NCBI GenBank assembly: GCA_949317995.1
Contig: OX439035.1
Coordinates: forward strand, 82,833,959-82,897,958
Direction: 5' to 3'
DNA length: 64,000 bases
From: Acholoe squamosa
Lineage: Eukaryota > Annelida > Polychaeta > Phyllodocida > Polynoidae
Part shown: piece by piece, positions 1-48,480 of the stretch
Position numbering within the stretch: the first letter of the stretch is position 1
Layout: every line of letters starts with the position of its first letter
Program-made: the position numbers and the translations under genes
The notes under the pieces: generated by a model
What the model was told of the DNA's origin: nothing
The model's input: the letters and a program-made list of their open reading frames with translations, nothing else
Databases searched by the model: none

Positions 1-1018
1 GGTGTGGAAAAACTGATCTAGGTTCAATGGGTCTCTAAGGTTGAGGGTACCTAGAGAAGGTCATTGAGTTACCTGAAGGTGCAATCTGATCATGAAAAAT
101 GGGCTCAAACACACATCTGACTGATGTAGAGTGAATTAAAGGTTATTAATCTTTATAATATCAATACTTAGTCACCATAAGTCAGTAGTTTATATTTGCA
201 AGCATATGAATTCTATAAGGAAGCAATGGAACATATCTATGTATATTGAAAAGTACCAGGACACTGCATAATTATGCTAATTATGCAAATAATATGCACG
301 GATATGGAGTGTTCGGTATGAATTTGGGCTCGAAAAAAAGGTTTTTTTGAGGGGGGGGGGGTGTACATGCTAGTGCAGGACTTGCAAAAAGGGGGTGGGG
401 GTGGGGTCGAAAACCTCATATATGATTGTCCCATAGTGTGACCTATGACTTAAGGGTTTCTCAAGCTGGCGATCATCGAGGTGACGTTTATTTTCTAATC
501 TTATGACAAATGTGTCCAAGTTATCGGTAATTTTAGTCTATTACACCAAATTAGCGATATTTTAGGGACAAATAAATGCATATGAGCATCATGCTGACCT
601 TATGATGTAATAGCTATTAATTATTTCATGGCCAAATACAATGTGGTAAGGGTGTATCAAACATATGTTTTGTGTGCTTTGCTCTTTTGTCATTATGATG
701 CATGAATGCAGCCCTGGTGAGTAACCAGAGATTATTTTACAGTCTAATTGAATTCCTAGCTTCAATGACAATGTATAGTGTGTATAAGGGAATGTGTGTG
801 GGTGAGGGGGGGGGGTATTGTGTATGGCGATGTATAGGCTGATGTAACTATCTAACCCTGATCCTACAAATTGATATAAGGCGTTATTGAGTTCCTAGCG
901 TCAATGCACCACTATAGCAAGGTAGAAGGGTATCTGTCTGGACCTACAAAATAATATACAATCTTATTGAGTTCCTAGCATCAATGGCACGTCAGTTTGA
1001 ACTCCTAATAATCCCATA
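1..1018. other. Intergenic, no gene seen
   Basis: I see no coding exon here. ORFs are short, AT-rich and interrupted. There are G runs near 350-360, 397-408 and 808-816. A short phrase, TTATTGAGTTCCTAGC followed by TCAATG, recurs about three times (near 745, 884 and 964), suggesting a diverged small tandem duplication. Confidence 0.6.
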
Positions 1019-1255
1019 TACCGTAATCTCTCGCGCAGAAGACGCAGTGCGCATATAAGATGCACCCCAAACTCAGCAAAGGCTGTTTGGCATATAAGAC
1101 GCACCTCTTAGGGGTGATTTTTGTAAGATTAGTACATTTCTATAATAAATATACCTTGCGTATAAGACGCACCCCCAAATCGAGAGAAAGCTATAAGACG
1201 CACCAGCCTTTTGTTTGGCATATAAGACGCGTCTTATACGCTGGAGATTACGGTA
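1019..1255. mobile_element. CCGTAATCTC-family TIR element, copy A
   Basis: The left end reads TACCGTAATCTCTCGCG and the right end is its inverse, ending GGAGATTACGGTA, so the unit is TA, TIR, interior, TIR, TA. TA on both sides fits a 2-bp TA target duplication. The interior repeats the phrase ATAAGACGCACC several times in both orientations, giving a strongly foldable sequence. Six further copies lie in this window. It has no ORF of its own, so it is a non-autonomous element (MITE). The TA duplication is compatible with Tc1/mariner-like mobilisation, but the superfamily is not proven. Confidence 0.8.
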
Positions 1256-3340
1256 ATGATAATCTGTCAATAACACAAATAGGAATCATGTGTTGAATAG
1301 AACATGCCAATTTACAAAATGTCATAAATGCAGTGTACCTTACATAAATTACCAAAAAAAAAAACACGCCATGAAACACATCCAAAGCCCGTAGAACTTT
1401 GGTCTAATGTCACTGATATTTACACAGTGTCCCGAGTGTTGCAGTGAGCCACTTTGAACTACTCACAGAAGCAGCCATGTCCTAAGATGACGGCCATCAG
1501 TGGGATGCACAACTATAGTACTACCGGTATATGCAGAGTTAGCATCCGCCGCCCCTTACCACCCTGTTCCTGTGGCCGCCACCATTTCTCTTGTAGACCT
1601 CCAAGGATAATACTGTATAGGCATGTCTGCTGTAAATATAGTCCAGGCACCGTCCCAGCACCAATCTCCACATTTACCCTTCAGCATTTACTACTCATAC
1701 TCATGATACTCTAGTCTAGATCTGTACAGTATTGTCAACCTCGGTGGTTAGATTGAGGGTATTATCTTTTGCTTGTGTGTATCACATCATATGTAATCTT
1801 ATATTCACTTTTAACAGGAAAATATCCCCATTGAGAGTGACAATGGGAAGAGAAGAACGATAGGTAGTTTGGACTTGCTGGTTCCCATGCTCACCACCCT
1901 CCACCCGCCTACCACCGGCGGCAGATCTATCGATGATGCGGCGGCGCCGTTTTTCCTCCTGTACACCACATCGATCTGTTCTAAAAATAACCCTGCCAGG
2001 AGATGGCCATCATCACACTATGATACACAGTTTAAAACTTTAAAAAACACTACAGGGTGAGCGAAGGCGATATAGGGGAAGAAACCCCACCCTGAGAGAT
2101 AGGGGTTGGGGCTGTTGGGAGGCTATATCGAATGCTTCACAAGAAGCCCTGGGATAATTTCAATGGGTATCTGGGTGATAAATGCAGCCAATAAAAGAAG
2201 CCCACCCATTCTGTTGTTGTTGTTTTGTGTGTGTTTTTTTTTTTTTTTTTTTTTTTTTTGGCGGGGGTAATATAAAACAGGACCTGCATATGGAGGGTTA
2301 CAGGAGGGGCGGGGGATGCTAGAGGCAGCATCTAGGTTGAGTGATAGTGGCATTGTCATACAAGATCTGCCCACATGACTCCGCCTGGAGTATGGATGGT
2401 GGTGGTCAGCTATATTTAGAGCTTGGTATATATGGCCGATTGAAGGTTGTTGTCTAACATGAAAGACGACCTCTGCACTGGTCACCGCCCACCGCTATAT
2501 GTGATGCGATATGCGCAGTCAACCAGGGTGCACATCTTACTCTCTGTTTCTGCTCATATAGTCACTGACCCAATATTACTGTCTCTTTCATCAACGTATC
2601 CCTCAAGATTTTTATAAACTTAAATATTTATTTATTATTTATCTTTTTTCCCTTTAATTAATACAACGAGTAATACTAGTATAGCATGGGAATCAGCGAT
2701 GTTCTATCCTTTTTTGATGTGTGTCCCCTCATTTCACAGGAGTATGACTAAACCTAGTCCTGGTATTAATGTAGTGTGGTGTGTTACATCAGTAACATTG
2801 ACGTGATAGTGGAAGCAGTGAAAAAAAAAAACAGAAAGAAAAAGAAAAGAGCTTCTACAGTTACGATGTTATCGCTAGTTTCTATACAATACGATAACAT
2901 TTCCAATACACATAGAGTAATGCACCTTTATATAGCAACCAGTGACATTATGGTGGGCAAGATGGCGACTTCCATGAGATGACCAGGTATACCCCAATAG
3001 TGTCTACATAACCTAGATGATGGGGTCCCTGATCCCCTGGATATTGGCGTCTACACACTCTAACACTACTGACAGTCAGTAGTAGTGAGGGGATCCAATG
3101 GTCTTCAATCTAACAATTTCCCTTTGTTTTATTCTCTATTTTGATATGGCATATAGAACATTTTTTGAAATGGCATAGATAGTTTCGCCTTTAGATCTTC
3201 AATACTAGTATGACTTTTTTCAATCATATCATGTACACCGGGTAATTTCGGGCTTTATCCCATCCATTCATTGCCTGATGGCATCAGATGTACAACTCAA
3301 TCCTTAACCAAGAGATCCACGTCACTCTGTAAAATGTAAC
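1256..3340. other. Intergenic, no gene seen; homopolymer tracts
   Basis: No spliced coding signal is recognisable. A T tract of about 23 bases lies at 2237-2260, and A-rich runs at 1354-1363 and 2821-2845. Overlapping ORFs at 2123-2485 (-) are produced by the poly-T tract (lysine runs) and do not look like protein. Confidence 0.55.
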
Positions 3341-3635
3341 TACCGTAATCTCCAGCGTATAAGGCGCACCTCACGTATAAGACGCACCTACAGTTGAAGA
3401 ATATTGTCAAAAAAATAAAAAATTCATAACTTTGGTTCTACTGAATGGATTTTCAAAATTCAAAAAGCTATGTGTAGCTAGGGCCCCCCACACCCCCTTG
3501 AAACCACCTCTGTCATTTTTTGAGATAAGGGGAGTGTAACATATCAAAAGGAAGCTTTTGGTGTCCCCCTTGCGGATCCAGGAAGTACTAAAACCTCGCG
3601 TATAAGACGCGCCTTATACGCGGGAGATTACGGTA
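3341..3635. mobile_element. CCGTAATCTC-family TIR element, copy B
   Basis: TIRs start TACCGTAATCTCC and end GGGAGATTACGGTA. The interior (3415-3590) is unique sequence rather than only GCGTATAAG repeats. It is shared, in opposite orientation, with the copy at 61699-62972 and partly with 60154-60844: the phrases TTCTACTGAATGGATTTT, GCTATGTGTAGCTAGG and ATATCAAAAGGAAGC recur. This shows a real element family with a common interior of about 200 bp. Confidence 0.8.
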
Positions 3636-5637
3636 CCGGTATGTATGTGGTGACTTGAAGTGATATTTTATGTATGTTTACCAACCTTTACAAGTTGACT
3701 CCATTGTCCTGTAATAATATCATTGGCCACTAACTGAACTATTGGCATCATGCTGTTTAAAACGTACAGGAGGTGGCAGCTAGGGGTGAATCCTCGCACG
3801 ATGCAGGAGGGGCAGCGGTCCAAGAGGACGTAGGGCACTGCAGCTAGGAAAATTTGGTAGGGGAAAGGCGATGGGCGACAGAGCGTGTGTGTTTGAGGGG
3901 ATGAACCCTTTTTAGTGTAGCGAAGAACCCCACCGCCTGTTTTATCTATCGGGTCATATCCCTACCTAAAAGTCATAAATTCCATAAAGGTCCACCACAT
4001 ACCAGACTAACCACAAGGTCACAGTTGCTCAACGTGAGCAGGTTTGGATAGGTCTTTCGCTACATTGTTTTCTTTCAAGGTGATAGATACGCGCGTATAC
4101 GCTGCAGCACGTTTATCCTCATAAAAACACAAACCTGTTAAGCTAGATTTACTGCTTCGCTCATGGCTATTTAACCCAGCAAGCCCTAAGGCATAGAAAC
4201 TGTGAATTCGCTGTGCTATCCATTAATAGTTAATACATTGCTAAGTAGGGATTTGATACAAATGTACTAATACACTCAGGTTTCCCAGACTACAATGCAC
4301 ATACAATGTATATGGGTAGAGTGTATATGTTGGGAGTTGACGCGCCGACTACAGTACACAACATCCAGTGACTCAAGAAGAGTGTGGAAGAATAGTGAGT
4401 GGAGGGGTTGTTATAGAAGAACATGCACCCGCTCCCGGCAGCTTTGCCAACACGTAATCCACATTACCTTTTAATGTATAACCTTTGAAGGCAATACCTG
4501 TTTGTGTTTAGGGATAAGGAGGTTGGGTGTAACAGCAAGGGGCCCCAAAAGATCAACGAGGCTGCACTGGATCCCAGCCTAATGGTCAGTGCTGGCAATA
4601 CTACAGGTGTGAGGTGCGGGAATGTGTGTATGTGTATTGGGGTGGTATGGGGGAGGGGAGCATTCCTAAGGATCAGGATTTGCTGTGATATGGTGACGGT
4701 GACGTCAAAGAACCTTCTACTAATTCCCTCCCCGCGCAAATCTAAACTAGAACACACTTTCTTTTCTATAACTCACCACCTTCCCCCCGGTTGTCTAGTT
4801 TTTATATATAAGCCTAGGAGGCTCCCCAACACCACTTCCAGAGCACTTTAACAAAACCTATAGTGGGCGATCAACTCGTCCTCACTAGTACTCCTATGTA
4901 CTATACAAATTTCCCGTGCTCTAAATGATAGGACCAGGAGTGGAATTATGCAAATGTATTGACCTGTTACTTGGCCCTTTTCTAGTACAATATCATCCCG
5001 GGAATATTCACATTTCCCACTTCATATTGCAAAGATCTATTTGAAATAAAGGATATCTTCCTTGGTTTGCTTTCTCAATCAGGCACTGCTCCAACCCGCC
5101 CTTTATTGGTTTACAATATATTATTCAATAGAAGTGGCCATGTTCTTCTAATCATCACTTCTGTCTCCCAACGTGAGAAAAGCGTGTCAAATATTTGACA
5201 TAGATATGCGATGCTAGATATTTCCTTGGTGCTGGAAGCCTACATCCCCATGGACAAAATAATTCTCTGCTGCAGTTCAATAAAACCTGCATGTTTGTAG
5301 CTGGTCGACGGGGATTCAGCAGCCTTAATTATGGATGCAAAGCTGCATTGAACCCGGGTGTATACCCAGGCTATTGTGACGGCCGGGGCAAGGGTAGATC
5401 TATCGGACTGGGGAATACAAGGCCTAGTTGGCGCTAAGCCTGCTGAATTTTCCAGCCAGGACATCAATCATGCCAAGTCTTAAGACTCACTGGACTACAT
5501 GTGACTAACCAGAAATTCGCCACCTCCTTGTTCTCATGTGGATGCCCCTAATTCTGCCTAATTTTTCACACACTATTTTGATCTGTTAACACCGTTCATA
5601 TTACAGGTCATCATTTTGATCGTTCATAATGCTTTTA
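3636..5637. other. Intergenic, no gene seen
   Basis: No exon with convincing codon structure. Overlapping ORFs on opposite strands at 4464-4851 have no recognisable domain. A CRE-like TGACGTCA lies near 4700 and a palindromic CGCGCGTATACGC near 4090, both probably chance. Confidence 0.5.
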
Positions 5638-19675: not shown

Positions 19676-19929
19676 TACCGTAATCTCCCGCGTATAAGGC
19701 GCGTCTTATAGGCCAAACAAAATGCTTCTGGGTCTTATACGTGGGAGGTAAATTGCCTTGAGTTTGGGGTGCGCCTTATAGGGGGGGGGGGGTATTTTTT
19801 ACTATAGAACAGTACTAAACTGACAAATAGCTGCCCTCAGAGGTGTGCCTTATACGTTATAACAGACCTCCCTGAGTTGGGGATGCGCCTTATAGGCGAG
19901 CTGCGCCTTATACGCGAGAGATTACGGTA
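19676..19929. mobile_element. CCGTAATCTC-family TIR element, copy C
   Basis: TACCGTAATCTCCCGCG on the left and CGCGAGAGATTACGGTA on the right, with TATAAGGCGCG phrases in both orientations inside and a G12 run near 19780. Interior sequence such as TTTACTATAGAACAGTACT is shared with the copy at 36009. Confidence 0.85.
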
Positions 19930-32752: not shown

Positions 32753-32909
32753 TCTTCACCTACCACCAACGTAAAATGCTGTCTGCCGCCATCTTAGATG
32801 TTTACGTTTCAAAAGGGCTGCGCATGTGCAATGGACCTATGACATCATCGTGCGGATTTGGCGCTAGTTATTTAATGCAGGGGTTCAATACGGGAGACTA
32901 GTGCATTGT

Positions 32910-33912
32910 CAATGGGGCATCGATATTCACCTTGACATAAAACTAGATATACATGTCGATGGAGTGTCAATTGATCTCATTAGCTTCAGTACCGACAATC
33001 AGGCACAACTCCAAAGGGAGACCCAGTGGTGCCCTGTCCTGAACGCCCTAGCAGAGGTCGTATATCGTGGATGGCCATCAAAGATATCTGACTTACAGAC
33101 TTACCTCCATATATTCTGGTCATTCAGAGATATGATTGGCCTTGATGATGGGATCCTGTTCAAAGGAAAGCAGGTCATCGTTCCAGAAACAATGCAGAAG
33201 GACATTCTACAGCAACTCCACCGTGCTCATCTAGGCATAGAAAAGACAAGGTTGCTGGCCCGAGACAGTCTACTGGCTACGGATCAATGCCGACATTGAG
33301 AAAGTGGTCCAGGGTTGTAGTGCATGCCAAGATTATTACTCAAAATTTCCGATTGTCAAAGAATTACAACCTCCAGTGAATTCTGAGGTTGTAAAAGATG
33401 TAGTGGAGGAGGCCTGCTGCACCTTTGGAAGACTAGACGAGATCAGGTCAGATAACGGCCTACAATATGCTAGTGAGACCTTTAAGGAGTTTTGCCAGCG
33501 ATGGGGAATAAAGCATACAACATCATCCCCACATTACGCCCAGTCCAATTTGTATATTGAGCGTCAAGTATGCTATGTAAAGCCAGTCATCAAAAAGTGC
33601 ATCAAGTCAAAAGGAAGTATCCAGGAAGCCCTGCTGATGCTACGGGCTACCCCAGTTGAAAGCCGGTTGCCATCACCGGCTGAGATGTTGCTAGAAAGGC
33701 AGGTAGCTACTATGTTACGAGCACATGAGGCTGATATTGACCAAGACATCAAACATAGGCTGGAAGAGAGGGGGAGACAAGGCCAAAGAGCAATACGTCT
33801 AGACAGCACGGAGTCAACCTCTGCCATCCTTATACCCAGGGCAGGACATTTACATCCAAGACAAGGCCTCCAAGACATGGCTGCTAGGCACAGTCGTGGA
33901 AAAGAGGGCTGA
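32910..33912 (+). pseudogene. gypsy integrase, internally deleted and frameshifted
   Basis: Two plus frames. The first (to 33299) contains DDGILFKGKQVIVPETMQ and HRAHLGIEKTRLLARDS, the start of the HHCC zinc-binding domain. The second (33304-33912) resumes with GCSACQDY, the Cys-Cys half. It then jumps straight to YSKFPIVKEL, losing the segment with the first catalytic Asp. The second Asp (RSDNG near 33450) and the Glu region (YIERQV near 33558) are present. A stop at 33299 separates the frames. Non-functional. Confidence 0.8.
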
Positions 33913-39709: not shown

Positions 39710-40712
39710 CTAGACATTATACAATAACCTATCCGCCTCGTCTGTGGGGTCCACCTCAATAGGTTTGTCATAGAATGAGGCAAACGAGCTGGCACTCCAC
39801 CAGCCTGCTTGTCTCATGATAGCATTAATGTCTGCTCCTGGGGCTTTTACTTTGCTTGTGGAAGCTCCCCTCGTTGAGTGGAGCCGCCATCCGGTCCCCT
39901 TGTTTGTTGGATTTTACCAACTTACTTAATTGGAACGCAACTCTTATCTTTTTCAAATGATAGGCTAGTCACTTCTAACGCAACAATAGTTTGACCCCTT
40001 TGTGAGGTAGTAACAGTATAGCTAGTTTCAACGATAACTCTCGTAACGTCATATGTACATTGCGTTTCCACTCTTTAAGGAATGTCAAGACTACCCCTAC
40101 ATCCCAGAATGTGGGATATTTAGGGCCTGCCGGGTTTCTCTCATAAGCACCCTTGGTGAGCCAACATAGATCTCTATGTTGACCCAACGCGATGCCCCCT
40201 GACACGGGAAGAACTGTGGACAGTGCACTTCTGGCCACAGACAGTGCGCTGTGCCCCAGCCCTTCCTTCTGCAGTCTACGTAGGAAGGCACAAACTTCTG
40301 GCAACGAAGGTTTCAGAATGTGAATGCTCTTTTCCAAACAGAAATCCGTCCACTTATGTATGTACGTGGAGTATGTCTTTATCAAAATTAACCCGATAGT
40401 GCCTTTAGTATAGCCTTCTTTTCTTAGCCTTTTACTCAACAAATCAGAAAAGCCGCCAGGCCTAAGGTCCCTATTTCGGCAGTCTTTCTTGGCTTTCTGT
40501 GCGGTTGAAGATTTCCTTTTCAACTTCTGAACTCTATTTTCATGGTTGCTATCCGGATTAACTGACCCCAACATGTTTGGCCTTTCCATTTGGGGGCCAC
40601 TACCACACACCGGGCTTGGTCCATCTCTATCTTCTGGACCACTCTTCCCGTCAAACTGAAAGGAGGAAAGAAAAAAAAAAGAAATCTTGAGACCAGTCCA
40701 AGGTGAACGCAT
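39710..40712 (-). pseudogene. DIRS tyrosine recombinase, internally deleted
   Basis: The frame 40712-39975 holds the N-terminal core-binding part (LRKEGYTKGTIGLILIKTYS, KPSLPEVCAFLRRLQKEGLG) and stops at LLLPHKGVKLLLR, where the first catalytic Arg is expected. A second frame, 39905-39710, supplies the C-terminal part: HSTRGASTSKVKAPGADIN contains the His-x-x-Arg pair, and SFASFYDKP holds the Tyr nucleophile, then a stop. The segment with the first Arg is lost or broken between the two, so the enzyme is inactive. Confidence 0.82.
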
Positions 40713-41548
40713 CTACCTCATAACTCTCAGGTTCTAGGTCTAGTAACACATAACAAGGCAATTTAGCATTGATTCTAGATGCAAACATGTCAACCTCAGG
40801 TACTCCAAACTCTCTAAAGATTCTCTTGAAGATACTTGGACTCAGTTCCCACTCTGTGTCATCGGAAAACTTTCTAGATTTGTAATCCGCTAGTACATTA
40901 AGTACCCCTGGGATATGTGCAATGGACAACCAGTTTTTCACACCAATCCCAAATCAGCCTTGCTTCATCATTGCATTGCTCTGACCTAACCCCACCATGG
41001 TTCTTTACATAAGCCAATGCTGTTGTATTGTCAGTGTATACTTTCACATGACAAACCTCTTCTTTCACCAGGCTTTGAAGGCCATGTCTGATGGCCATCA
41101 ATTCCTTCACATTGATGTGGAAGTTCTCCTTCTCACCCAGCCATCTGCCACCTGCAGTGACTTCCCCTCTATGAGCTCCCAAACCATCTTCAGAAGCATC
41201 TGTAAAGATCTCCAACCCTCGTGAACCCATAGAAATTTCCTTACTAGCCTCAAAAGTGAAATGCTCTAGCCACCACCAAATGTCTTGCTTTCCCTTGAGC
41301 TTCAGCCTTATTTTACCATCAAAATCTCCCTTTGTCCTTTCCAGGGCAAGGTTTTTCTCCCTTTCTAGTCCTTTGATATGCCCCAGGGCATATTGGGATG
41401 ATGGTGCGTAAGCAGTCATTAAACCTAACAAACCTGCCACCTCCCTGATGGTTGGCCTATCCCTATTCAGCAAGTCACTTCCTGCTAACCTGAGCTTTTC
41501 TACTTTCTCTACAGTAGGGGTGATGATCTGAGTTGTCTGATACCACAT
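40651..41548 (-). pseudogene. DIRS RT thumb and RNase H, frameshifted
   Basis: The frame 41548-40898 begins with RT thumb sequence (TIREVAGLLGLMTAYAPSSQ). RNase H follows: FTDAS (first Asp), VKELMAIRHGL (Glu), VYTDNTTALAYVK (second Asp). It continues in a second frame (40941-40651) with HIPGVLNVLADYKSR and then GVPEVDMFASRIN, a region typical of DIRS polyproteins after RNase H. The RT palm with YLDD-like box is absent, and a frameshift lies near 40900-40940. Confidence 0.82.
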
Positions 41549-41983
41549 CGACTTTCTTCCTCTTAACCGAGGGAGTTACATCCTCCTCTTCCTCGTCATC
41601 TGCTGGAGGGTAGTATCCCAGATGACCATATAAGCAAATGTGGGGACTGGTCACATCCCACTCAGCCATATAATGGCTTCGTGGGATACGCCAGTCCCAC
41701 CTCGGGGAATACGATGTAAAAAATCCCATGGAAGTGAACATTTGCATTTATGTCATGGCCTAGGGGGTTATTTTGCTTTTAAATAAAGAAAAACAGCTCA
41801 GATCTGGTCAAAATCCAAGTTGGCGGACACCCATTAAATATGAACACACTGTATTTAATGCCCCCCATTGAAAACAGAGGTTCTAGTACTAATCTTTAGT
41901 GACGTTTGTATCAGCCATGACATAAAACCGTATGCCCCATAGGGGTTAAAGTTCATTGGTGGAGGAGGCGGGTAGCCCTCGTT

Positions 41984-44534: not shown

Positions 44535-44978
44535 CCGGGGGGCCACTTGCTATATATCTTATAGTAACCATGTGCGTACACAAACTAGCGGGAAAGGGGG
44601 TACTTTTTGGGCACAAGGGGCGGGTCCCCCTGGATCCTTTAATAGGGGTGTATTTTGGGCTGATTTGGGCAAAAAGGGGTATGCTTTTTGGGCCAAATGA
44701 CCAACGAAAAATTCCGGAATTTTCAGTAAAAAAGAGGTATATTTAGGAAAAATTTAGGGCAATTTTTCTCATAAGTTATGGGAGTTGCACGCCAAAAGGG
44801 GTATGATTTTTGTTATTTTAGAGGGGACCCATCAAAAGGGGGTATATTTTCAGTAAATTTTGGGGGTGTATCCCACCAAAAGGGGGTGTTTTTTGAATAA
44901 TTTTGCCCCGCTAAAAGGGTACAAAATTTAGGGTGATGTACCCACATGGTATCTACAAATTCGAGAGTGGCCCCCCGG
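44535..44978. mobile_element. Mutator-like MITE, 9-bp duplication, AAAAGGGGGTAT motifs
   Basis: TIR CCGGGGGGCCACT on the left and AGTGGCCCCCCGG on the right. A 9-bp flanking repeat, GCCTTCCAT at 44526-44534 and GCTTTCCAT at 44979-44987, differs at one base. Nine-base duplications are typical of Mutator-like elements. The motif AAAGGGGGTATTTTT or its kin recurs near 44597, 44644, 44674, 44735, 44799, 44836, 44880 and 44915. Confidence 0.75.
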
Positions 44979-45137
44979 GCTTTCCATAGTGTCGCACCGG
45001 CTTGTTTGGCTGTCATCGCTACTATGTAACATAATTTATGGACGGCCCCAAATAGCCAACGTCGACTGAAGTGTGTTCCCCGGAGACTGCCTAGCAACAG
45101 TGCTAGGTAACGTTGTGCTTAGCAAACCTGCCTAGCT

Positions 45138-46628
45138 CACAGTGACGACACCTATTACCGTAATTCGAATTACGGCGATCAAAAATGGCGGCTGGTGAGT
45201 TTGTAAACAAAGTCAAGAGGTGACATTTAGCATATAAAGAGGTTGTTTTAGCTGTTCCTAGGTAATACACATCTGGTTAAGAGACATGTCTATCCGTGGG
45301 TTAACCAGGTTATCTTCTTTATACAATAGTTTGTGTGTGGGAGACATGACCAGTTTTCACTGGTATTACCGTAATTCGATTTGTTATCAAAACATGGTAT
45401 CACCGTAATTCGTGATAGGTATCACCGTAATTCTAGAGTATCATGTCAGTTTTGCTTTGATTTCTGGCTATACACTGCCATGTAGAATATCCAAATCTGT
45501 CAGACACGTTCCTAAAAGCTTTAAGAAAACTACTCTCCCCTTCAGGCTAACCTATTCATCGTTTAGGAATGAAATCACATCCATGTGGTCAAATATTACC
45601 GTAATTCTCGTTTACAAACAAGGTATCACCGTAATTCTATACATTTTTGATATATGAAGCTTATGCATATATAAACGATATCCAATAGAAAGCAATACTT
45701 ACAACAAAGCGTTATAATTATAATAACGGTAGCAACAAGAGTTATTGACACACCAGGTGCCGTATGGAAAATACAGGTCTTTAAACAATGATGGACCAAT
45801 GGAATTGAATAGAGGAAAAATGTGTGTTTTTTTCAGCCTTGTAAATAAGTGAGCTCTATTTCATTATTTCATTTATGTAAACTGACCATCGGAGTTGGTA
45901 TTTGAACTTAGGTGAAAAAGCGTCAACTCAAGAGATTACTGTGTGAATAGAAGGGGATCAGTGTAATCACAGTGTCAAGACTTTACTATTGATTTATATA
46001 TAGAAAATAATAGGAATTGAATAATCAGATTCTTTAAATCCGTTTTGAACATAAAAATCAGTTTCTTCAGTTTGAGAGCATGTTCTATGTGATGCTCGAT
46101 GCTGTGTTGAACTATGCTCTCATACTTCCCACTTCCCTTGTCACAGTAGTAGCACAGAAACTGTGGCAAACATGATTCTGAAAATAGATAAGGAAACTTT
46201 ATTTAATACAAGAAGCCAGTGAAAAAAGTTCTTTGGCATTATTTACACGAGGATATTTGCTGCTGGGCATTAGTGTTAAAGGAGAGTGAATTACGGTAAT
46301 ACCTTCATGAAGAATTACGGTGATATTTTGCTCAGAATTACGGTAATACTTGGCAAAGTGAACGTCAGAATTACGGTAATACCTCTTCCTGAATTACGGT
46401 AATACCGGCGTTTTTAAAAAGGTCTTTTCCTGCCTTAACTAGTACACATCAAGTTAATCCAAGGGTTGGGTATTAAGCAGGAATGCCAATACTTCAATCT
46501 GTCCACACAAGTTGCTTGAAATAACCATAGATATCTTATAAATCAATAGAGAAGAAATGAAGTGAACTCACCAGCCGCCATATTTGATCGCCGTAATTCG
46601 AATTACGGTAATGGGTGTCATCACTGTG
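45138..46628. mobile_element. TIR element with RSS-like CACAGTG ends and 5-bp duplication
   Basis: The ends read CACAGTGACGACACC and, in inverse, CACAGTGATGACACC. The TIR of about 62 bases has 3 differences. It is flanked by TAGCT on both sides (45133-45137 and 46629-46633). Inside, TATYACCGTAATTC occurs five times facing right in the left half (45364, 45399, 45419, 45594, 45622). It occurs five times inverted in the right half (46288, 46312, 46335, 46367, 46391), with a further palindromic copy in each TIR. CAC-starting ends and 5-bp duplications are the hallmark of Transib and RAG-like transposons. No transposase ORF is present. Confidence 0.8.
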
Positions 46629-46768
46629 TAGCTACTCTTTTAAAGTCTTTACCAGGTAACGTGCCTGGCAAACTTCCCCGCTAGCCCGGGCCCGCTAGCC
46701 TAGGCTAAAAGTGTGTTCTAGACCTAGAATCTATCCCTTCTACCCAAATCCCTTGACCCGGTATGATC

Positions 46769-46937
46769 CAGGGTTGCCAACTCTCTAGTTCCAGCCAGTA
46801 ACTAACTCATTCCGTACCTCCATTGAGGGACGGAATGGGGTTGCGTCAGACTAACAACTCTCATGCAATAGGCCGTACTGTTCACAACGCCACCCTCTAC
46901 TGGAGTGTGTGCCAATGTATGAGAGTTGGCAACCCTG
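46769..46937. mobile_element. CAGGGTTGCCAACTCTC MITE
   Basis: Left CAGGGTTGCCAACTCTC and right GAGAGTTGGCAACCCTG are perfect inverted 17-mers. Length 169 bp, no ORF. Confidence 0.75.
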
Positions 46938-46974
46938 TAGGCAACCCTGGCCTGAGTATCAGTCGGTGCGTTCG

Positions 46975-47388
46975 GGCAGCAGTTTTCTAACCATATGCAG
47001 TGCATTGTGGGTGGGGGTGACCTCGAACGCTAACTACACCACCTTAGCTTGTTCCCTCCACCCCCTTCCACCCCAGCCAGGTCTGGCTAGGTACCAATCC
47101 TTAACTATGCTTGGGAGTGTAGTAAGTTGACTCAGGGATCAACATTGACCTACATGGGGCAGACCAATAGGGGGTGGCCTTACAAACCAGCATTGATCCC
47201 TCGGCCGTACTCCGATGTTGATCCCCAAGTCAACTTACTACACTTCCAAGCATAGTTAAGGGCTGGTACCTAGCCAGACCTGGCTGGGGTGGAAGGGGGT
47301 GGAGGGAACAAGCTAAGGTTGTGTAGTTAGCGTTCGAGGTCACCCCTACCCATAATGCAATAGATATCCTTTGAAAACCGCTGCCCCA
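46975..47388. repeat. Long palindrome with ~175-bp arms
   Basis: The left arm (to about 47150) and right arm (from about 47210) are inverse copies. Landmarks are GTGACCTCGAACGCTAACTAC, AGCTTGTTCCCTCCACCCCC, CCAGGTCTGGCTAGGTACCA and TAGTAAGTTGACT. Few differences suggest a recent origin. The loop is about 60 bases. It may be a foldback element or the end pair of a larger unit. Confidence 0.85.
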
Positions 47389-47602: not shown

Positions 47603-48480
47603 TGACCGAAGATGACTTTCTTGAGTAATCTCCGATCCAACTGGAGGAAACCTGGAAATGACTTTCCATTTCCTGGATTGTCATCTCCAGTCTGTTCTAT
47701 ATGGTTACCTGTACCGTACATCGGAGATGACTTTCTTGAGTCATCTCCGATCCACCTGAAAGATACCTGGGACCTGGAGATGACTTTCCGCCTCCTGGAT
47801 TGTCATCTCCAGTCTGTTCTATGGTCACATGTACACCGGAGATGACTTTTTTGAGTCATCTCCGATCCACCTGGAGGACACCTCTACCTACAAGCCTGGA
47901 GATGACTTTACACCTCCTTGGTTGTCATCTCCAGTCTGTTCTATGGATGTAGGCTACACCTGGGACCTGGAGATGACTTTCCGCCTCCTGGATTGTCATC
48001 TCCAGTCTGTTCTATGGTCACCTGTACACCGGAGATGACTTTCTTGAGTCATCTCCGATCCAACTGGAGGAAACCTGTGACCTGGAGATGACTTTCCGCC
48101 TCCTGGATTGTCATCTCCAGTCTTTTCTATGGTCACCTGTACACCGGAGATGACTTTCTTGAGTCATCTCCGATCCACCTGGAGGAAACCTGTGACCTGG
48201 AGATGACTTTCCATTTCCTGGATTGTCATCTCCAGTCTGTTCTATGGTTACCTGTACACCGGAGATGACTTTCTCGAGTCATCTCCTCTCTGCACCTATG
48301 GGACCTGTACCCTGCAGATCACTTCCAACATTCCAGGTAGTCATCTCCAGACTGATTTAAGGCCATTTCTAACCTGGAGATGACTTTCTAGTGTCATCTC
48401 CGGTCTGCCTGGAGGATGCCTGCACCTGGAGATGACCTACCATGTCCTGGGTAGTCATCTCCAAACTGTTCTTAGGGAGT
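47603..48480. repeat. 115-bp hairpin satellite (GGAGATGAC / GTCATCTCC)
   Basis: The unit of about 115 bases repeats at 47606, 47721, 47836, 48029, 48144 and 48259, with shorter diverged units to 48480. Each unit holds two hairpins: GGAGATGACTTTCTTGAGTC then ATCTCC, and GGAGATGACTTTCC, a spacer, then GTCATCTCC. A step of 193 rather than 115 between 47836 and 48029 reflects an extra partial unit. The plus ORFs are the repeat read as protein. Confidence 0.92.

Follow-up and report, generated by a model that had tools for sequence, protein, structure and literature searches.

The window analysed here is a 64-kb stretch of the Acholoe squamosa genome (C1:82833959–82897958) that contains an element of 1491 bp at positions 45138–46628, the features of which are collected in Table 1. 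As the original prediction had described, both ends of the element begin with CACAGTG and are flanked by perfect copies of TAGCT, a duplication that is not GC-rich, and inspection by eye revealed no nonamer at a distance of 12 or 23 bases. The terminal inverted repeats (TIRs), earlier given as 62 bp, were present but measured 64 bp, with 61 of 64 positions (95%) identical between left and right.

The predicted arrays of five inward-facing TATYACCGTAATTC copies on each side were also recovered, and their coordinates were mapped. An additional palindromic copy had been claimed for each TIR, and both are present. The left-TIR copy at 45153 is exact, whereas the right-TIR copy at 46600 has one mismatch, and the inverted copies that follow (45167 on the left, 46586 on the right) are degenerate. 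In the rest of the 64-kb window, just two sites lay within two mismatches of TATYACCGTAATTC. The motif appeared in none of 300 Markov-resampled versions of positions 44900–46900, in which exact inverted matches reached 18 at most. This resampling and the genome-wide pattern control described below rule out a chance origin, and the element is a genuine transposon.

Table 1. Positions of the element's features in the window
Feature	Position	Strand	Basis
Left target-site duplication, TAGCT	45133..45137	.	sequence
Left TIR, 64 bp: CACAGTG, ACACC, inward motif, inverted motif, AAAATGGCGGCTGGTGAG	45138..45201	+	
Left inward TATYACCGTAATTC copies, exact: 45153 (in TIR), 45364, 45398, 45420, 45594, 45624	45153..45637	+	
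AAAATGGCG, putative site; agrees with AANATGGCG (YY1 motif CGCCATNTT, reverse-complemented)	45182..45190	+	PMC7481187 motif
Interior common to copies L009 and L010 (first part also L011), without recognised coding content	45666..46053	.	
Exon 2 remnant with C2H2 finger (SCLPQFLCYYCDKGSGKYESIVQHSIEHH...), terminating at the deletion junction	46054..46177	-	
Intron 1, 394 nt, GTGAGT...TTTCAG, housing the right motif array	46178..46571	-	splice sites inferred from sequence
Right inward TATYACCGTAATTC array, exact: 46288, 46312, 46335, 46368, 46391	46288..46404	-	
Right TIR, 64 bp, CACAGTG end	46565..46628	-	
Exon 1 (ATGGCGGCTG), inferred, with start codon within the right TIR	46572..46581	-	in phase with exon 2
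Right target-site duplication, TAGCT	46629..46633	.	sequence

Other repeats also occur in the window. Directly to the right of the element is a fold-back at 46974–47386, with arms of 172 bp that are 91% complementary and a loop of 69 bp; an ORF fragment of this fold-back recurs in the flank of another copy (L012), so that it looks like a dispersed repeat. It is followed at 47605–48472 by a tandem array with units of ~115 bp and internal inverted repeats (TCATCTCC/GGAGATGA). Repeats built of units resembling TATAAGACGC were found at 1021–1260 and 19884–19918, and near the former, at approximately 1247–1258, lies ATTACGGTAAT, which is close to the core of the element's motif. Retroelement remains are present at 32868–33909 on the plus strand, with an integrase core (rve, E = 1.3e-10) and an H2C2 zinc-binding domain, and at 39978–41575 on the minus strand, with weak RNase H matches. 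An ORF adjoining the latter, without a match in Pfam, has what we take to be a resemblance to a DIRS tyrosine recombinase.

Copies in the genome and their target sites

We searched the whole assembly (1.48 Gb in 63 contigs) with the 1491-bp element, scoring 40 of 236 candidates, and the listed matches fell by our own grouping into at least 39 places, with most pieces showing 95–99% identity. A TIR pattern of 34 bases, with up to three mismatches allowed, matched the genome at 198 ends (103 + 95), whereas the reversed-pattern control gave no match. Among the 100 ends listed, the spans of adjacent pairs ranged between 335 and 3263 bp, and those of 520 and of 953 bp formed length classes. Perfect 5-bp duplications flanked 38 of the 42 two-ended copies examined, which comprise a first set of 37, four more and L084; five copies with an end missing or incomplete (L011, L019, L049, L075 and L085) lie outside this count. 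One of the copies with a perfect duplication, L052, has CAGAGTG at one end, and the two-ended copy L039 has no duplication. Three copies (L009, L031 and L078) have 6-bp duplications (TTTAAT, CTTTTT and ATACAT, respectively), which suggests some slack in the stagger.

The mobility of the family is evident from its many near-identical copies and their 5-bp duplications. Insertion occurs with a 5-bp stagger, and internal-deletion derivatives have spread. This search for further copies and their duplication lengths, which had been proposed as a check, supports the earlier description of the element as a DNA transposon that is non-autonomous, has CAC ends and makes 5-bp duplications. Neither 8-bp nor 2-bp duplications, nor a hAT or P copy, the outcomes that had been set against that description, were found in the copies read. 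When flanks were joined to look for a paralogous empty site, the only match was to the element's own locus.

The arrangement of motifs was similar among copies. In the 23 of 42 two-ended copies checked, the left part had four to six exact motif copies, mostly at the same offsets, and the right part had two to six, TIR copies included in each case. In L013 (301–2915), an internal duplication covers the left part together with some of the gene described below and contains additional motif copies; this copy retains a perfect 5-bp target-site duplication, AAGGA.

The duplications had a GC content of 26% (n = 37), compared with 41% for the flanks, and only one of the 37 had four or more G or C bases, so that the targets showed no GC bias. 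The symmetrised consensus of the 37 duplications was C|ANNNT|G, with C at the preceding position in 50 of 74 cases and A at the first position in 48 of 74. These targets bear on the original prediction that a RAG1/Transib-type recombinase mobilises the element. CACAGTG is the heptamer of the recombination signal sequence, the RAG/Transib group is described as having 5-bp duplications and TIRs that open with a CAC heptamer (PMC7204232, PMC8289069), with RAGL and Transib both producing duplications of this length (PMC7204232), and the CMCT clade in general is characterised by CA..TG ends and 2–5 bp duplications (PMC12730594). The TIR also contains a YY1-type motif, as in ProtoRAG, where a YY1 motif has been reported to bind the TIRs (PMC7481187). 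The orientation of AAAATGGCG is, however, opposite to that of the ProtoRAG motif, and this sequence overlaps the start codon of the gene described below. Likewise, GC-rich targets are reported to be favoured by ProtoRAG, Transib and RAG (PMC8289069), whereas those of the present family are AT-rich, and its TIRs are long and symmetric and accompanied by arrays. No RAG1-like ORF was seen in the copies read. The RAG1 profile PF12940 had no match in the genome, as was also the case in control genomes. Mobilisation by a RAG1/Transib-type recombinase went unsupported, given the AT-rich targets and the zinc-finger/lambda-exonuclease gene that the copies carry, and we consider it unlikely.

Candidates for an autonomous copy were also inspected. 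The length of L077 and L078 is due to inserted sequence (for L078, as judged from the match pattern), and L011 and L019 each have a single end in ~9.8 kb and continue into other repeats. A long pair of ends without a YqaJ match, C4:54174068–54181615, was set aside because its ORFs appeared by eye to be Ty3-type retroelement-like; no match to relatives was found in the 5801 of its 7548 bases that were read. Neither the Transib/RAG1-like core that the original prediction had envisaged for a longer copy nor any other recognised transposase was seen in the copies read.

Finger/exonuclease gene and related families

Longer copies, including L012, L013, L014, L018 and L079, contain pieces of a gene on the minus strand, with the order C2H2 finger, central domain, coiled coil and lambda-exonuclease/YqaJ-type PD-(D/E)XK nuclease. 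The copy in the window retains only a stub of this gene, and an intact full-length copy of its own family was not seen. An ATG at position 48 of the right TIR opens a 10-nt exon with which exon 2 is in phase (MAAESCLPQFLCYYC...), and the start codon of the gene therefore appears to lie in the TIR. Given that the right motif array is situated within intron 1, the finger/exonuclease protein might in addition control the gene that encodes it.

The C2H2 finger gave a weak match to zf_C2H2_ZHX that was below the cut-off; in the search with the finger exon remnant, 110 of 253 candidates were scored. The coiled coil was recognised by eye and from weak matches to coiled-coil models. The nuclease domain scored 22.3 bits against YqaJ (cut-off, 22), with YqaJ found at E ≤ 0.1 in just two of six aligned nuclease pieces, L018 included, and it matched TIGR03033 over residues 70–223 with E = 2.1e-7, its 31.2 bits falling under the model cut-off of 68. 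The central domain had no significant Pfam match and no match to a transposase family at E ≤ 1 (best, CdvA, E = 0.24). Its stretch before and around 'DGKK' may resemble the start of RNase H domains of the P/THAP9 type. No hAT match was present in the five ORFs scanned with Pfam. Searches for PDB relatives gave none for A2 and insignificant matches only for L018 and A3; matches in PHROGs were weak and all to unnamed families; and viral contigs gave two pattern matches and no confirmed relative.

A genome search with the nuclease ORF, in which each of the 61 candidates was scored, gave 52 matching pieces. L091 holds a diverged relative (196–3948) with two ends (CACAGTGTGAACACC, CACAGTG), a length of 3753 bp, the duplication ATCAT and 42% identity in the nuclease part. 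The gene of L091 is interrupted by stops and frame changes, and its pieces all lie on the same strand, between 774 and roughly 3085. A 97-aa ORF runs antisense within the gene, and beyond the gene span the sole ORF of at least 75 aa is one of 102 aa that crosses the left end. The TIR of L091 follows the same plan as that of the window's element: three variable bases separate CACAGTG from ACACC, after which come an inward motif (TATGGGTAATG), the inverse of this motif and an ATGGC block. Inward GGTAATG copies number two on the left and four on the right, TIR copies included. The motif of this second family is GGTATGGGTAATG. The constancy of the heptamer and ACACC, together with a repeated motif that is specific to each family, would follow naturally if the motif were read by the finger of the element itself, as is probably the case.

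The ends of the second family numbered 78 genome-wide, compared with one match for the control. Apart from the eight clusters that belong to the window's family, 14 of 25 YqaJ gene clusters had a second-family end no more than 4 kb away (expected, 0.011), and the other 11 had none within that distance. A looser pattern for a third type of end, CACAGTGSNNACACC, gave 296 matches versus 94 for its control, so that approximately one-third may be background. On C1–C5, for which the listing of matches to this looser pattern is nearly complete, 16 of 25 finger-gene clusters (not counting nine of the window's family) had a second- or third-type end at a distance of 4 kb or less (expected, 0.05), and nine had no such end within that distance. 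Third-type pairs that bracket gene matches span about 1.5–2.8 kb, as known from coordinates alone. Among the matches listed, none to the gene fell in the third-type pairs C3:69154730–69157634, C5:22928443–22931371 and C1:89278787–89281575, and none to YqaJ in the second-family pairs C5:64242493–64246678 and C6:55863305–55866925. The finger/exonuclease gene is thus associated with CACAGTG ends, with gene pieces inside such ends in the two families that were read and, by coordinates only, between or beside ends of the third type.

Nei–Gojobori dN/dS values between families were 0.39 for L018/L053, 0.21 for L014/L053, 0.22 for L018/L067, 0.29 for L018/L090 and 0.41 for L014/L090, with stops skipped and with several of the copies decayed, which raises dN. 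Within a family, L090/L092 gave 1.13, and L018/L048, both of the window's family, differed by ~1% at nonsynonymous sites with no synonymous change; the L018/L092 comparison was saturated. The ratios between families show the gene to be more conserved than neutral drift would leave it, a conclusion confined to these between-family comparisons. It seems that the gene was maintained during the divergence of the families and that its copies decay once inserted.

Proposed mechanism of transposition

On balance, we favour the explanation that the element is a non-autonomous, internally deleted derivative of a single-gene cut-and-paste DNA transposon of ~3.7 kb, a size taken from one two-ended relative, L091, the gene of which is broken by stops, and that the finger/exonuclease protein is either the transposase itself or an essential subunit of that enzyme. 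The derivation by internal deletion is established. The protein would be translated from the start codon in the right TIR, its finger would bind the family-specific motif arrays and the TIR palindromes, and it would pair the two ends. Strand transfer, with a stagger of 5 bp, would join the element into C|ANNNT|G targets, and the nuclease domain of the protein would process the ends or excision intermediates. Binding of the arrays by the protein is probable. To our knowledge, no protein of this kind performs strand transfer alone. A DDE domain was undetected in the gene and in the copies read, and such a domain may therefore be supplied in trans.

Another DDE transposase, either hAT5-like or from an ISL2EU-like two-gene parent that has lost its transposase gene, might accordingly act on the ends, with the finger/exonuclease gene being accessory. 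YqaJ/lambda-exonuclease-like nucleases are described as accompanying DDE transposases in ISL2EU (PMC4482050, PMC9179366), a lambda-exonuclease-like nuclease occurs with a DDE transposase in the account of KolobokE (PMC9587614), and hAT5 is reported to make 5-bp duplications (PMC9004415). The 3753 bp between the ends of L091, however, leave no room for a second transposase-sized gene, none of 150 scored DDE_Tnp_4 matches (of 2938 candidates) was within 8 kb of the 278 listed ends, and the long pair on C4 holds the retroelement-like ORFs noted above. We regard this alternative as possible but rather doubtful. More improbable still is that the protein with finger and lambda-exonuclease-type PD-(D/E)XK domain is itself the transposase with no classical DDE domain, in which case the element would represent a novel type of eukaryotic DNA transposon, and the heptamer resembling a recombination signal and the 5-bp stagger would have arisen independently of RAG.

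The element counsels caution. The CACAGTG ends and 5-bp duplications invite a RAG/Transib reading, yet the only gene detected in the two families read encodes a finger/lambda-exonuclease protein; heptamer and duplication length alone are insufficient for inferring RAG ancestry. The finger/exonuclease protein either contains an undescribed transposase or has a hidden partner, and the youth of the family makes both testable.

Comparison with known transposons

DNA transposons with an exonuclease-type protein are an already known kind, and the literature searched, within the extent of those sources, yielded no description of CACAGTG-ended ones with such a gene, for which a Repbase entry may exist. 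A DNA-binding protein of the YqaJ-exonuclease kind, in a DNA transposon of animals, is the feature shared with ISL2EU, of the PHIS superfamily. According to PMC4482050, a DDE/THAP transposase is in most cases encoded by a second gene of ISL2EU, the ends of which are usually GG and the duplications 2-bp AT. The element here differs in its CACAGTG ends, 5-bp duplications and one detected gene; no PHIS DDE transposase was found in the same element, with L091 having no second gene.

KolobokE likewise contains a lambda-exonuclease-like PD-(D/E)XK nuclease within a transposon. Its nuclease is described as lying downstream of the DDE transposase domain, with Kolobok ends being RR..YY and the duplications TTAA (PMC9587614). 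The present element, in contrast, has no TTAA duplication and no RR..YY ends, and a DDE domain was undetected.

Transib, ProtoRAG and RAGL elements share the CAC heptamer ends and 5-bp duplications, as well as, for ProtoRAG, a YY1-type TIR motif. The element described here differs from them in its AT-rich target and in its 64-bp symmetric TIRs with motif arrays, and no RAG1L, RAG2L or Transib gene was seen. It shares with hAT5 a 5-bp duplication, although a hAT transposase was not seen in the copies read. En/Spm (CACTA) transposons have CAC ends, 2–3 bp duplications and subterminal arrays of motifs to which a protein encoded by the element binds. The present element thus resembles them in its CAC ends and subterminal arrays, whereas duplication length and proteins differ.
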